Assembly: GCA_002698785.1 (NCBI GenBank)
Contig: PAAG01000053.1
Coordinates: 186,001-250,000 of the forward strand
Length of the DNA stretch: 64,000 nt
From: Verrucomicrobiales bacterium
GTDB lineage: Bacteria; Verrucomicrobiota; Verrucomicrobiia; Verrucomicrobiales; DEV007
Direction of reading: 5' to 3'
The notes below the pieces were generated by a model that was given only the letters and a program-made list of their open reading frames with translations, did not search any database and was not told the DNA's origin. A program made the position numbers and the translations under genes. Positions 19,706 through 49,093 of the stretch are shown here, one piece after another. Each line of letters opens with the position of its first letter. Position 1 is the stretch's first letter.

Positions 19706-20014
19706 ATGGCATACGCAATTTTCAAAACGGGTGGCAAACAGTACCGTGTGGAAGCTGGCGACAAGATCGATGTTGAAAAACTCGACGTCGAAGTCGGCGA
19801 TACCGTTACGTTTGAGGAAGTGCTCGCTTCCGGCAGCGGAGAAGGAATCTCCGTGGGTGCACCGTTTGTGGACGGAGCAACAGTCACCGCGAAAGTGGTC
19901 GACCAGTTCCGCGCCAAAAAGGTGATTGCATTCAAGTTCAAGCGCCGTAAGGGGCACCACAAGACCAAGGGGCACCGTCGTCATATGACTCGCCTGGAGA
20001 TTGTCTCCGTCTAA
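19706..20014 (+). CDS. rplU: 50S ribosomal protein L21
   Basis: 102 aa, full length. The opening AYAIFKTGGKQYRVEAGDKI and the basic C-terminal tail FKRRKGHHKTKGHRRHMTRLEI are diagnostic of bL21, which binds 23S rRNA domain I/II of the large subunit. It is followed 25 bp later by rpmA, the usual order. The common third gene, obgE, is absent; a tRNA methyltransferase takes its place. Confidence 0.98.
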   Translation: MAYAIFKTGGKQYRVEAGDKIDVEKLDVEVGDTVTFEEVLASGSGEGISVGAPFVDGATVTAKVVDQFRAKKVIAFKFKRRKGHHKTKGHRRHMTRLEIVSV

Positions 20015-44768: not shown

Positions 44769-45800
44769 TTACTCTGCCTTATGATACGCCTGATAGTGCT
44801 CTTTGAGAAGGTCGCGTCCGAAATCTCCCTCAAAGTCGCGCCACACAGCATGAACGTGATTCGCGTTGTTCTGGGTGTTGGCATACTCAAGCAAAAAGGT
44901 CGGACCCTGAACGCGATAGTAATGCGGCTCTCCCTTTTCCAGTCCACCGGCCCAGGCAAAAACGATGTTTTCCATGCCTGCTTCCTTGATCGCTTTCAGG
45001 TCATCTTTTGCAACCTCAGGACGAAGTCGGTGAACGTAAACATTAATCAGTGCTCGCAGTCCTTTCTTCTGTTCCTTATCCAATTCCTTCCAAGTCACAC
45101 CTGCATCACCGAGAGACTCCACCTTTGTCTCAGCACTGGTCAGGATATCTCGGGGCGCTTCGTCTTCTACGATGGCCTTGGTTTGCTGCTCTTCCGAGAA
45201 CGATTTGATGAGGTCCCGGGCGACGTCTTCTTCGTGTGCGAGGACTCGCAACCCTTTACGAGGCCCCTCCAGAACTTCACCAGGATTCGAAGCAAAGAAG
45301 TTGGGAGTACCCGAAACTACTTTTCCGCCTGCAATGGTAAAGTTCAGCGAGAGGTGATGTCCCTCCACTCGCCATCCCCAGTTTTCTGAGCCTGGTTCAC
45401 CGAAAATACTCACGTAATACATCAAGGTATTCCGCTTTGGATCGTTCTCCAGCTCCCAGAGTACCTGCTCCAGGCTCATGATTTCCAATGCTGTGGTGAG
45501 ACCGTGAGTGCTCATTCCCGTGCTGAGCAAAGCATAAGCGAGGTGCCGTTGAGCAGGCTCCATATCCTTGAGGGTCAATCCGCCGCGCATACCTTCGCCT
45601 TCAAAGGGTTTGGGAATAAAATGCCAGTTTACACGCTCTTCGTCTGTCAGCTTGTAGGTGGCCTGTTCCTTTTGCTCATCGGTAAGGGTTGCCAGCCACG
45701 CATTGGCTGCATCAGCCATGGCGACTGCCGTTTCGTGAGCACGAAGTGACGCCGAACTTGCCAGCGTCAGGACCAGGATTATGGGGAGAAACCGTTTCAT
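44769..45800 (-). CDS. DUF3500 domain secreted protein
   Basis: 343 aa with a signal peptide (residues 1-21, ending LRA/H). DUF3500 landmarks: ATYKLTDEERVNWHFIP, QRHLAYALLSTGMSTHG, SENWGWRVEGHHLSLNFTI and HVHAVWRDFEGDFG. The domain is widespread in Planctomycetes and Verrucomicrobia and often co-located with esterases. Biochemical role unknown. First gene of the run ending with the methyltransferase. Confidence 0.9.
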   Translation of the reverse strand: MKRFLPIILVLTLASSASLRAHETAVAMADAANAWLATLTDEQKEQATYKLTDEERVNWHFIPKPFEGEGMRGGLTLKDMEPAQRHLAYALLSTGMSTHGLTTALEIMSLEQVLWELENDPKRNTLMYYVSIFGEPGSENWGWRVEGHHLSLNFTIAGGKVVSGTPNFFASNPGEVLEGPRKGLRVLAHEEDVARDLIKSFSEEQQTKAIVEDEAPRDILTSAETKVESLGDAGVTWKELDKEQKKGLRALINVYVHRLRPEVAKDDLKAIKEAGMENIVFAWAGGLEKGEPHYYRVQGPTFLLEYANTQNNANHVHAVWRDFEGDFGRDLLKEHYQAYHKAE

Positions 45801-45950
45801 ATCGGCCTATTAGCGCATAATTCTTAGAGAGGGCAAGGGCGCAATCGCTTAGTAAAGGAGGCCCAATGTAACCAGATTAGGGCTTTTCCCGTCTTTCTCG
45901 GTAGGCGAAGATCACACGGGAAGATCCTTGGTGAGCAATCGTTGCTGAAC

Positions 45951-46550
45951 ATGTTTTTTTTCGATACAACCCGGACATTCTGTCAGGTGGATACCGAGAT
46001 TCCAGAGTCCGAAATGGTGGCTCGCGCCAAGAGAGGCGACGAGGATGCCTTTGTGCGTCTCGCTATCATCTACCGGCCCAAAGTCTGGAAGACAGCATCT
46101 CGATTCGCTCGTTCCCGTGCTGAGTTGGAAGATCTGACTCAGGAGCTTTTCATCAAGATCTGGAAAGGGCTTCCCTCCTACCGTGCCGACGCTCCTTTCG
46201 AGAACTGGTTGATGAAGGTATCGGTCCGAGGCTGCTACGATTTTCTGCGAAAAAACCGAAACCGTCGGGAAGCAGAGCACCTGGTCGATCCTCAGGAATC
46301 ACGCGAGGCCGAAGATCGCCACCCTGTCCGCCAACGGAATCAGCGGGAAGCATGGGAAACAGTGCAAATCTTACTCCAGCGCATGGAGGCAAAAGATCGC
46401 ACCGTCATTACCCTCCTCGATCTGGAAGACAAAAGCGTGAAAGAGACCGCAGAGCTTACCGGCTGGAGCGAATCGAATGTAAAAGTCCGCGCCCACAGGG
46501 CTCGGAAGAAAATGCGCGAAATCTTTGAAGAACTCGGATTGGAAAAATGA
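45951..46550 (+). CDS. ECF RNA polymerase sigma factor (CnrH-like position)
   Basis: 199 aa from ATG 45951 (TTG at 45942, and later starts such as GTG 45990, are possible). Region 2 holds SEMVARAKRGDEDAFVRL and RSRAELEDLTQELFIKIWKG. The -10 recognition helix is FENWLMKVSVRGCYDFLRKNR, and region 4 is LEDKSVKETAELTGWSESNVKVRAHRARKK, cut here to its core words. It overlaps the next gene by ATGA. Followed by a short single-TM protein and a Spy-like protein, it matches the size order of CnrH/CnrY/CnrX. Activation would need an extracytoplasmic signal; inferred. Confidence 0.87.
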   Translation: MFFFDTTRTFCQVDTEIPESEMVARAKRGDEDAFVRLAIIYRPKVWKTASRFARSRAELEDLTQELFIKIWKGLPSYRADAPFENWLMKVSVRGCYDFLRKNRNRREAEHLVDPQESREAEDRHPVRQRNQREAWETVQILLQRMEAKDRTVITLLDLEDKSVKETAELTGWSESNVKVRAHRARKKMREIFEELGLEK

Positions 46551-46840
46551 ACACGAACGATCCCATCGAACACATTGTGAATGAGGCAAAGTCTTACTCT
46601 CCTTTCGGGGAACCGGGCGACTTTGGCTTCGAAACGCGTCTTCGGGCAGGTTTGGCATCTCTTGAGCCTGGCGTCATGGATTCGATTGCATCGCTTTCCT
46701 GGCGGTTTTCCCTCACCTTTCTCCCTGTGTTGGTTGCTGCGGTCGTTTTTCTGACGATGCAGCAGCAGTCGGACTTCTTCTCCTCGGGAGTGGGGGAATT
46801 TGTTACCCATTGGGCGGGCTATCTGCCCCTCGATATCTGA
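46547..46840 (+). CDS. Short single-pass membrane protein, candidate anti-sigma factor
   Basis: 97 aa. Residues 1-50 are cytoplasmic and partly helical (PIEHIVNEAKSYS, FETRLRAGLASLE), one membrane helix covers ~53-71, and about 25 residues are periplasmic. It has no zinc-binding anti-sigma (ZAS) motif, as in CnrY, which is similar in length (about 95 aa) and topology. Its ATG overlaps the sigma stop, and the Spy-like gene starts 3 bases after its own stop. It probably holds the sigma factor at the membrane; no sequence motif proves it. Confidence 0.7.
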   Translation: MNTNDPIEHIVNEAKSYSPFGEPGDFGFETRLRAGLASLEPGVMDSIASLSWRFSLTFLPVLVAAVVFLTMQQQSDFFSSGVGEFVTHWAGYLPLDI

Positions 46841-46843
46841 TCC

Positions 46844-47275
46844 ATGGCTGGAAAAACAAAACTAAAAGCTGGCTGCGGCCTGACTCTCGTATTCGCAGCG
46901 GGCTTCCTTTGCGGTGCCATCGCCCTGTTTGTCCTGATCGCAAGGATTGTCCCCCTGAGCGAGGGCTGGAGGGACGAGGAGTCGAAAGAGTTCGTCATGA
47001 ACCATCTCGCGAGCCAGTTGAAGCTGACCGAAGAGCAGATTCCCGAGATCGAGCCTATCGTCCGAAAGGCTCTTGAAGAGCGATATTCTCGGCGAAAAAC
47101 GTACGTGCTCGCCGATATAGAACTCACCCGAGCTGCCAAAGAGGCAATGAAACCTTACTTGGACGAGAAGCAGAAAAAGAAGATCGATCGAATGTTCACG
47201 AACTGGCAGAAAGGGAAAAAACGCTTCGTTTTGCCCGCGGAAGGGGCTTCGCCTGAGGAGCTGGATAAGGAATAG
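46844..47275 (+). CDS. Membrane-anchored Spy/CpxP/CnrX-like periplasmic protein
   Basis: 143 aa. One N-terminal membrane helix (residues ~8-33), then an all-helical periplasmic domain. LASQLKLTEEQIPEIEPIV contains the LTxxQ motif of the Spy/CpxP/CnrX group, and MKPYLDEKQKKKIDRMF occupies the place of the second repeat. CnrX is a metal sensor with the same topology and length (about 148 aa). Only one His (NHL, near residue 50) and few Met are visible, so the ligand may not be a metal. The C-terminus is Lys/Glu-rich. Confidence 0.75.
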   Translation: MAGKTKLKAGCGLTLVFAAGFLCGAIALFVLIARIVPLSEGWRDEESKEFVMNHLASQLKLTEEQIPEIEPIVRKALEERYSRRKTYVLADIELTRAAKEAMKPYLDEKQKKKIDRMFTNWQKGKKRFVLPAEGASPEELDKE

Positions 47276-47405
47276 AAGATCGACTGGGTTTCGCCAGATT
47301 TTCAAATTTACACTTGCGATTCCGTCAATCCGGCCCGTTAAGTGCCGCGATTCGCAGGCTGCGAACGGGTGATTCGCCCCCGGTCTTTCTTTCGCGGCCG
47401 CCTTC

Positions 47406-47421
47406 TCCGGAGATCTCCGGA
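47406..47421 (+). promoter_or_regulatory. Perfect 16-nt palindrome before sulP
   Basis: TCCGGAGATCTCCGGA is its own reverse complement and ends 7 nt before the preferred GTG start of sulP. It could be an operator for a dimeric regulator or an RNA hairpin that hides the ribosome-binding region. If translation starts further upstream, it lies in coding sequence and its role is doubtful. Confidence 0.4.
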
Positions 47422-47428
47422 ACTCCTT

Positions 47429-49093
47429 GTGAACCTTGAACCTACCTCACGTACCGTGATTCAGCTCATCTATCGAAAATTCGGCAATCGCATCCAGGCT
47501 AAGGACGATTTGCTCTCCGGGTTGACTGTTGCTCTGGCTCTCGTGCCAGAAGCCGTCGCTTTCGCCATCATCGCTGGGGTTCCTCCATTGGTAGGTCTCT
47601 ACGCCGCATTCATGATCTGCCTCATCACGGCGATCGCTGGAGGTAGACCGGGTATGATCTCCGGGGCAACCGGTGCTCTCGCTGTCATCATGGTCGGGTT
47701 GGTGAAACTTGGGAATGAAAAGGGCGAAGCTCTGGGGCTGGGAGATAACGCCGGTCTCCAATATCTTTTTCTCGCCGTCATCTTGATGGGGATCATTCAA
47801 ATATTGTGTGGTGCATTGCGTCTGGGCAGATTTGTTCGCCTCATTCCGCAGCCGGTTATGTTCGGCTTTGTGAATGGCCTGGCGATTGTGATCTTCCAGG
47901 CGCAGTTTCCTATGTTTACCGAGAGTCCGACCACTCCTGGGGCAGAATGGCTGTCCGGCGGTTCGATGGCTCTCATGCTTGGGCTCGTGCTTCTGACAAT
48001 GTTGATCAGTTTCTTCCTTCCGAAGCTGACGACTCAGGTGCCAGCTTCGTTGGTGGGTATCATCGTCGTGAGCCTGATCGTGATCGGCTTTAGCCTCGAT
48101 ACGCTCGTAGTGGGAGACATGTCGAAAATCGGTGGAGGATTGCCAAGCCTTGTCTCCTTTTCGGTTCCGCTGAATTGGGAAACGCTTTCCTTCATTGCGC
48201 CGTTCTCGTTCATCCTCGCCGCTGTTGGATTGATCGAATCTCTCATGACGCTCACGCTCATTGACGAGCTCACCGAAACTCGCGGACGCGCCAATCGTGA
48301 GTGCGTGGGGCAGGGGATCGCCAACATCGTTACCGGCTTTTTCGGTGGTATGGGCGGCTGTGCTATGATCGGGCAAAGTATGATCAACATCCGCTCGGGC
48401 GGTCGAGGCCGTTTGTCTGGGATCTCTGCCGGACTTTTCCTCCTCTGCTTCATCCTTTTTGCCAGCCCGCTGATTGAGCGGATTCCGCTCGGAGCCCTCA
48501 CCGGAGTGATGTTCATGGTCGTGATCGGGACATTTGAGTGGTCCAGCATCCGCATCTTGCGGAAGATTCCCGTGTCTGATGCTTTTGTGATCATTCTCGT
48601 CTCCGTGATCACTGTGGTAACACACAACCTCGCTCTGGCGGTTATCACGGGGGTTGTGGTGTCTGCTCTCGTCTTCGCATGGAAATCTGCCCATCACATC
48701 CACCGTGAGTCCGAGATCCGTGAAGACGGAGCAAAGGTCTACTATCTCCACGGCCCGCTTTTCTTTGGCTCAGTCTCGGATTTTGCTACGGAATTTTCTC
48801 CTTCGCAGGACCCTGAAGTTGTCATCGTCGACCTCATGGATTCTCGCGTCTGGGACCACTCGGGCCTCGAAGCCATTCAGAAGCTCGCAGAGCGTTACCG
48901 TGCAGAGGGTAAAACCCTCAAACTCCAGCATATCAGCGCCAACTGCCGCCAGCTGTTGGAAAAAGCCGGTAGTCTCGTCGATGTCATCGTGCTTGAGGAC
49001 GACCCCACATACATCGTCGCGAACCTGAAGAAATCGGATCGCACCCCTTCCGCTCGCACCGCGAAAGAGGACGAGCCACTGCTCGGTTCCTGA
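47429..49093 (+). CDS. SulP (SLC26) family anion transporter
   Basis: 554 aa from GTG 47429 (the frame is open to GTG 47342, so the start is uncertain). LTVALALVPEAVAFAI and RPGMISGATGALAVI are SulP signatures; about 12-14 membrane segments form the core. A C-terminal STAS domain starts near residue 435 (VYYLHGPLFFGSVSDFA, VDLMDSRVWDHSGLEAI). SulP proteins carry sulfate, bicarbonate or other anions. Since the window has two sulfatases, sulfate handling is one guess, but BicA-like bicarbonate uptake is also possible. Confidence 0.9.
   Translation: MNLEPTSRTVIQLIYRKFGNRIQAKDDLLSGLTVALALVPEAVAFAIIAGVPPLVGLYAAFMICLITAIAGGRPGMISGATGALAVIMVGLVKLGNEKGEALGLGDNAGLQYLFLAVILMGIIQILCGALRLGRFVRLIPQPVMFGFVNGLAIVIFQAQFPMFTESPTTPGAEWLSGGSMALMLGLVLLTMLISFFLPKLTTQVPASLVGIIVVSLIVIGFSLDTLVVGDMSKIGGGLPSLVSFSVPLNWETLSFIAPFSFILAAVGLIESLMTLTLIDELTETRGRANRECVGQGIANIVTGFFGGMGGCAMIGQSMINIRSGGRGRLSGISAGLFLLCFILFASPLIERIPLGALTGVMFMVVIGTFEWSSIRILRKIPVSDAFVIILVSVITVVTHNLALAVITGVVVSALVFAWKSAHHIHRESEIREDGAKVYYLHGPLFFGSVSDFATEFSPSQDPEVVIVDLMDSRVWDHSGLEAIQKLAERYRAEGKTLKLQHISANCRQLLEKAGSLVDVIVLEDDPTYIVANLKKSDRTPSARTAKEDEPLLGS

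Follow-up and report, generated by a model that had tools for sequence, protein, structure and literature searches.

CnrYXH, from pMOL28 of Cupriavidus metallidurans, is a transition-metal sensing system in which an ECF sigma factor (CnrH), an anti-sigma factor of about 95 residues (CnrY) and a periplasmic sensor of 148 residues (CnrX) are encoded in one cluster, in the order cnrY-cnrX-cnrH. The metal-ligand set of CnrX consists of His, Met and Glu residues. The LTXXQ proteins Spy and CpxP are envelope chaperones. The cytoplasmic part of CnrY forms two helices that embrace CnrH (PMC4598750), holding its sigma2 and sigma4 domains (PMC4598750, PMC7406223), and the binding of metal by CnrX is believed to be passed on to CnrY (PMC4598750). 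In Azospirillum brasilense, the operon AMK58_24940-24950 is described as encoding RpoE8, a hypothetical protein and a periplasmic heavy metal sensor, and as being up-regulated on over-expression of RpoE6 (PMC12826043). In Rhodopirellula baltica, the ECF sigma factor RB10049 has been proposed as the regulator of RB10051, a PSD1/PSC2 (DUF1553/DUF1549) protein (PMC2754498, citing Studholme et al.).

The locus analysed here belongs to an uncultured member of the Verrucomicrobiales (G000; 7.0 Mb, 60 contigs), as its named relatives indicate, and lies within a stretch of 64,000 nucleotides, the window. It encodes an ECF sigma factor, a single-pass protein of 97 residues (p97) and a membrane-anchored candidate sensor, and we conclude that this trio probably works like CnrYXH and is not a member of it. 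The two systems have in common an ECF sigma factor, a small anti-sigma factor (a candidate here) and a periplasmic sensor (likewise a candidate here) of similar sizes, and their encoding in one cluster. They differ in gene order (sigma-p97-sensor here), in the clade to which their sigma factors belong, in their neighbouring genes (DUF3500, SulP or BioA, and none that is cnrCBA-like) and in their targets, which are predicted here to be PSCyt2/PSD1, haem/copper-monooxygenase-like and membrane proteins and not an RND pump. The trio sensor also differs from CnrX in having no comparable ligand set as far as His, Met and Cys are concerned. The preliminary description of the locus had stressed that its sigma-first order departs from that of cnrYXH; this holds, but the order is not unique, as the Azospirillum operon also begins with its sigma gene (PMC12826043). 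Compared by description only, that operon resembles the trio further in its unnamed middle protein and its last gene of the heavy-metal-sensor type, and differs in its alphaproteobacterial host. With Spy, CpxP and ZraP the trio sensor shares two L-T-x-x-Q-type motifs at helix starts and, at the level of its family, matches to PF07813 and PF13801; unlike them it is membrane-anchored and tied to an ECF sigma factor, and the window protein scores under the Pfam cut-off. The Rhodopirellula pair, likewise compared by description only, links an ECF sigma factor to a PSCyt2/PSD1 protein, but comes from a planctomycete, and the excerpts of PMC2754498 mention no LTXXQ sensor or promoter motif. Excerpts of the literature that was searched contained no description of the trio or of its promoter; the ECF group may already have a number.

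Layout and conservation of the trio

All three genes lie on the forward strand. The sigma factor (199 aa; 45951..46550) was assigned from its sigma-70 domains and clade, p97 (46547..46840), a candidate class II-like anti-sigma factor, from alignment, AlphaFold prediction and the ATGA overlap, and the candidate sensor of the LTXXQ type (143 aa; 46844..47275) from alignments, AlphaFold prediction and Pfam family matches. The ATGA shared by the sigma and p97 genes occupies 46547-46550, and three bases separate the p97 stop (46840) from the sensor ATG (46844), so that the frames, the overlap and the gap are all as the preliminary description had placed them. The same description was right in recognising an ECF sigma gene, but its TTG start at 45942 is less likely than ATG 45951. 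The latter is most likely the true start, because a beginning of the type MFFFD/MLILD is common to the orthologues and the upstream TTG is not always present among them.

The sigma factor matches Sigma70_r2 (PF04542, E=1.9e-16) and Sigma70_r4_2 (PF08281, E=6e-15), both over 202 aa, as well as NCBIfam sigma-70 domains, and it contains regions 2 and 4 only, as an ECF sigma factor does. In a tree that included 25 of the 42 other sigma factors of G000 (L117 was left out), 19 trio sigmas formed one clade (support 99/94), separate from these 25 and excluding CnrH, which sat on a long branch beside another G000 sigma factor, L126 (94/95); the identity of the window sigma to CnrH is 26%. By eye, the start of the gene after L126 (G000:C20:48685) resembles a TonB-dependent receptor. 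G000 has 43 Sigma70_r2 matches, 42 of them above cut-off, and a scan of these 43 loci found a small protein with the p97-type motif only after the window sigma; that scan gives no verdict on L131 (contig end, no downstream sequence) or on L146 (read in a wrong frame). At another of these loci, L121 (G000:C12:36507), an RpoD-like sigma frame of 620 aa is followed after 69 bp by a 128-aa single-TM protein of p97-like layout, '...LLKQAKSVEPSPFFARNVVREAR...'. In genome G024 (contig C201; L263 / L319), a second sigma factor, 46% identical to that of the window, adjoins an A-family gene (see below).

Sigma, p97 and sensor are all present in the same 22 of 33 genomes of the genus, and 10/33 have no trio gene at the thresholds used. 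Taken singly, sigma and p97 were each detected in 22/33 genomes and the sensor in 23/33, the additional genome (G002, 75% complete) holding a sensor fragment only. The genes are adjacent and in the same order in 21/22 genomes, including that of the window; in the other, G005, the trio is split between the ends of two contigs, with sigma and p97 on one and the sensor on the other. Across the order, sensor matches occur in 47/239 genomes, 24 of them outside the genus, and 16 of the 18 distant loci inspected (of 24 distant matches) show the succession of sigma, small single-TM protein and sensor, with sensors in distant families only 19-23% identical. The other two (L111, L113) were rejected as weak chance matches inside long frames with no trio, and were excluded from the promoter and tree counts. 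Conservation in relatives, which the preliminary description had proposed as a check on its reading, was thus found both within and beyond the genus, and sequence comparison indicates that the trio is conserved as a single unit. In G000 the sensor is single-copy (next match E=0.18). Plasmid sequences searched by tblastn with a distant sensor (L112) gave no match at E<=1, and with the sigma factor gave 107 records, all below 60% identity; the 25 of these listed carried a generic sigma annotation or none.

Neither neighbour was retained as a member of the unit. The SulP gene (47342-49093) lies downstream in only 2/11 relatives compared (L029, L031), and the DUF3500 gene (44769-45800), which is divergent from the trio, lies upstream in 6/11, with a BioA-like gene in its place in 4/11; the contig of L029 is cut upstream.

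The candidate anti-sigma factor and the candidate sensor

In p97, helices at about residues 6-15 and 25-37, the latter containing GFETRLRAGL, are predicted to be cytosolic and are followed by a transmembrane segment (about 55-76) and a short periplasmic tail; four Lys/Arg residues precede the membrane segment and none follows it. The AlphaFold model (helices 6-15, 25-37 and 41-74, the last containing the membrane segment) is of low confidence (mean pLDDT 62.4). Conservation is highest in GFETR, which is predicted to face the cytosol, where a segment that binds sigma would be expected. The segment is found in 11/12 rows of the genus alignment, Cys replacing Arg in L032, and in the form [GA][FL]x[TL]R[LVI] in the small protein of 15/16 distant trio loci, L106 being without it. 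At the genus loci and at all 16 distant trio loci, the gene after sigma encodes a small single-TM protein, and the four-base ATGA overlap was seen in 9/11 loci measured. In one genus genome (G014; L024), p97 carries a tandem (APS)n expansion in the linker between GFETR and the membrane segment, which is absent from the close relative G031.

The preliminary description had likened p97 to CnrY, a non-ZAS anti-sigma factor, and this is borne out in so far as p97 is single-pass and HxxxCxxC is absent from both the 12-row and the 19-row p97 alignments. No Pfam anti-sigma family is matched by any of the 19 members of the p97 family, a search that could miss divergent or zinc-less class I (RseA/ZAS, ASDI) domains. 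Two short cytosolic helices, a membrane segment and no zinc motif give p97 a class II-like architecture on a low-confidence model, and on the same poor model it appears to fit the two-helix layout of CnrY without sequence similarity. Compared with CnrY from pMOL28 by hhalign, p97 gave a probability of 0.4% (from a shallow profile), and its profile gave no hits against PDB sequences.

The sensor has an N-in membrane anchor (about 11-37) and helices at 45-59, 66-105 and 108-126, in an AlphaFold model of modest confidence (mean pLDDT 75.8, pTM 0.51). It contains two LxxxQ motifs at helix starts, LTEEQ (61-65), which had been noted before, and LDEKQ (106-110), which had been missed. Two motifs of the L-T-x-x-Q type are present in 19/19 members of the sensor family, in whose 19-row alignment Q65, P71 and Q110 are invariant. 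The window protein matches Pfam LTXXQ at E=0.0029 and 18.7 bits, under the curated cut-off of 24.3; at E<=0.1, 11/19 family members match LTXXQ (PF07813; best 2.3e-6) and 9/19 match Metal_resist (PF13801; best 2.9e-7). A profile of the sensor against PDB sequences gave nothing relevant, and hhalign against CnrX from pMOL28 found nothing. Foldseek (best E 1.6) and VIA-align, run with the modest-confidence helical model, listed generic helical matches only, with neither CnrX nor Spy among them, a result that does not speak for a different fold. The kinship with CnrH, CnrY and CnrX that had been proposed is thus not sustained, as the sigma clade excludes CnrH and no similarity to CnrY or CnrX could be detected.

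The scarcity of His/Met ligands that the preliminary description had noticed is real: residues 41-143 contain one His, three Met and no Cys. In the periplasmic part, no column of the 19-row alignment reaches 50% His, Met or Cys, which makes a CnrX-like metal site unlikely; metal binding by Asp/Glu is possible. All 12 of the closest sensors have H54, which is not invariant across the wider family. The related suggestions, that this PVC bacterium has in the trio an envelope-signalling system whose periplasmic partner is of the LTXXQ type and that it senses something other than metal, agree with our results, the second in the sense that the family, with no His/Met/Cys position held throughout, probably does not sense metal in the way of CnrX.

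The predicted promoter and regulon

The genus loci have little in common ahead of the sigma start apart from TGTAACC-N16-CGTC, which in the window forms a predicted ECF promoter at 45867..45893 on the forward strand (-35-like element 45867-45873, -10-like element 45890-45893). In a search region independent of the assigned start and up to 330 bp long, YGTAACC-N15..17-CGTC was found upstream of sigma at 19/22 genus loci and 13/16 distant loci, where dinucleotide shuffles expect 0.005 and 0.000 matches, respectively. The 22 genus loci comprise the window, 19 further loci, L119 (G005) and L036 (UBA6138), with L005 and L012 left out as cut contigs. Near-matches occur among the misses (TGTAACT in L021/L022, TGTAACG in L102, GGTAACC in L108, an altered -10 half in L025), and L106 has a loose match only. 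No frame of at least 100 aa overlaps 45867..45893. The window holds five motif matches in all, four of them with one mismatch, where 2.03 are expected; a one-mismatch match at 19784-19810 (minus strand) was dropped, being antisense within a 102-aa frame. We take 45867..45893 as the putative autoregulatory promoter of the trio, which the recurrence of the motif in families with sensors 19-23% identical strongly supports; such a promoter is typical of an ECF sigma factor that regulates itself.

Counted over whole genomes, the motif shows no excess over a reversed control, with 9 against 17 matches in G000 for TGTAAC-N17-CGTC, 12 against 19 in G000 for YGTAACS-N16-CGTC and 61 against 60 across the genus for TGTAACC-N16-CGTC, and the question therefore became where the matches fall. 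Among the 61 strict matches of the genus, 16 are trio promoters; the 45 non-self matches comprise 24 before genes of four kinds, termed A, long A, B and C, and 21 that are scattered. B encodes a PSCyt2/PSD1 (DUF1549/DUF1553) protein, with a DUF1501 gene next to it in G000. The A protein has a CxxCH haem-type motif and weak likeness to cytochrome CBB3 (E=0.013) and to the copper-monooxygenase C-domain (E=0.053), whereas long A combines EF-hands, AhpC/TSA and Cu2_monoox_C (E=4.2e-5), and C is a DUF4013-like membrane protein, under the Pfam cut-off. From their hydrophobic N-termini, A and B would be exported.

Among target orthologues taken from a protein search, YGTAAC-N17-CGTC lies close upstream of B in 20/22, C in 17/24 and A in 15/24 cases, and before long A at 6/7 loci, equivalent to 5/6 genes, since one G004 gene accounts for two of the loci; the expectation from mononucleotide shuffles is at most 0.01 matches per set. 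The count for A omits L254 (30 bp upstream only) and 5/36 A-type places without a locus. Of the A genes lacking the motif, three are in the sigma-less genomes G012, G022 and G016, that of G005 has a spacer one base shorter, and five belong to a more distant kind (44-50% identical) that includes the short A gene of G000 (L264); in G000 itself the motif precedes B, C and long A. Outside the expected position, the target loci gave 7 matches to a looser pattern over 626 kb of strand-positions (the two strands of about 313 kb of DNA), of which six are starts of A, long-A or C genes and one is real background. The motif is absent before the targets present in the sigma-less genomes G029, G012, G016 and G022. 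It is found before targets in G030, G017, G009 (at B, not at C) and G023, in which neither sigma nor sensor was detected; these cases may reflect gaps in incomplete MAGs or another sigma factor. Strict promoters also precede an esterase-like gene (by Pfam; L217) and two genes for membrane-protein-like products (by eye; L184, L181), in one genus genome each, and these are possible minor regulon members.

A proposed model and its alternatives

Comparison of the sequences reveals one conserved unit, one promoter class and a recurrent set of predicted targets, with the same promoter type, YGTAAC(C/G)-N16-CGTC, before the operon and the A, B and C genes. From this conserved promoter at trio and targets, one would predict that the operon activates itself and that the regulon is small and concerned with the envelope, and we consider it probable that the trio forms, in the Verrucomicrobiales, a self-contained ECF module for envelope signalling, under positive autoregulation and with a small target set. 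We propose that p97 would hold sigma at the membrane, away from RNA polymerase, through its two N-terminal helices, including the GF[EA]TR helix, and that the anchored LTXXQ protein would keep p97 inhibitory until its periplasmic helices meet the signal. The freed sigma factor would then transcribe its own operon, giving feed-forward together with new inhibitor, and also its targets, most of whose products would probably be exported or sit in the membrane. A transition metal bound in the manner of CnrX is improbable as the signal; our best guess is an envelope condition connected with exported or haem proteins. A more specific reading, which we put forward tentatively as possible rather than probable, is that of a Verrucomicrobiales ECF pathway devoted to controlling part of the exported redox machinery of the planctomycete PSCyt/DUF1501 type, with a metal-free LTXXQ sensor and an anti-sigma family of its own (defined by the GF[EA]TR helix).

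Three other explanations have to be weighed. That the trio is a genuine but diverged transition-metal sensor of the CnrH/CnrY/CnrX type might be argued from the common three-part architecture, from the Metal_resist matches of 9/19 sensor family members and from the single invariant histidine (H54) of the 12 closest sensors, but we regard it as very improbable: CnrH falls outside the trio sigma clade, similarity to CnrX or CnrY was not found, the periplasmic part has no His/Met/Cys column at 50% in the 19-row family, and the annotated predicted targets include no metal efflux family. It is also unlikely that p97 is not an anti-sigma factor and the LTXXQ protein a Spy/CpxP-like chaperone and regulon member, with sigma controlled otherwise. 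The chaperone role of LTXXQ proteins such as Spy and CpxP would suit that explanation, as would the lack of a Pfam anti-sigma match in all 19 p97-family members; yet the small single-TM protein follows sigma at all 16 distant trio loci and the genus loci, the ATGA overlap recurs in 9/11 loci measured, and the GFETR segment of p97 is cytosolic, as for a sigma-binding segment.

The third explanation concerns the promoters of A, B and C, which could be read mainly by another ECF sigma factor of overlapping specificity, the trio sigma controlling little beyond its own operon. The motif kept at targets in G030, G017, G009 and G023, with no trio sigma detected, speaks for it, as does the second sigma of G024 (46% identical) that adjoins an A gene. 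These four exceptional genomes, however, are incomplete MAGs (63-93%), the sigma-less G029, G012, G016 and G022 have no motif before their targets, and operon and targets share consensus and spacing, and we give this explanation a small though real chance. The preferred reading remains that of a self-contained module, whose conserved promoter suggests that the switch formed by the trio turns on a few proteins, probably exported ones.

Some Verrucomicrobia carry many PSCyt-domain genes, whose functions were called unknown in a 2017 freshwater survey (PMC5615132). A sigma factor with a promoter consensus and a short target list makes possible a direct test of the target proteins and of the signal, and the trio offers a case, probably metal-free, in which an LTXXQ-type protein would control an ECF sigma factor. 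If the more specific reading is true, part of the exported PSCyt/DUF1501 proteins would have a dedicated signalling route. What emerges from these genomes looks like a self-activating, envelope-sensing switch common to many Verrucomicrobia.
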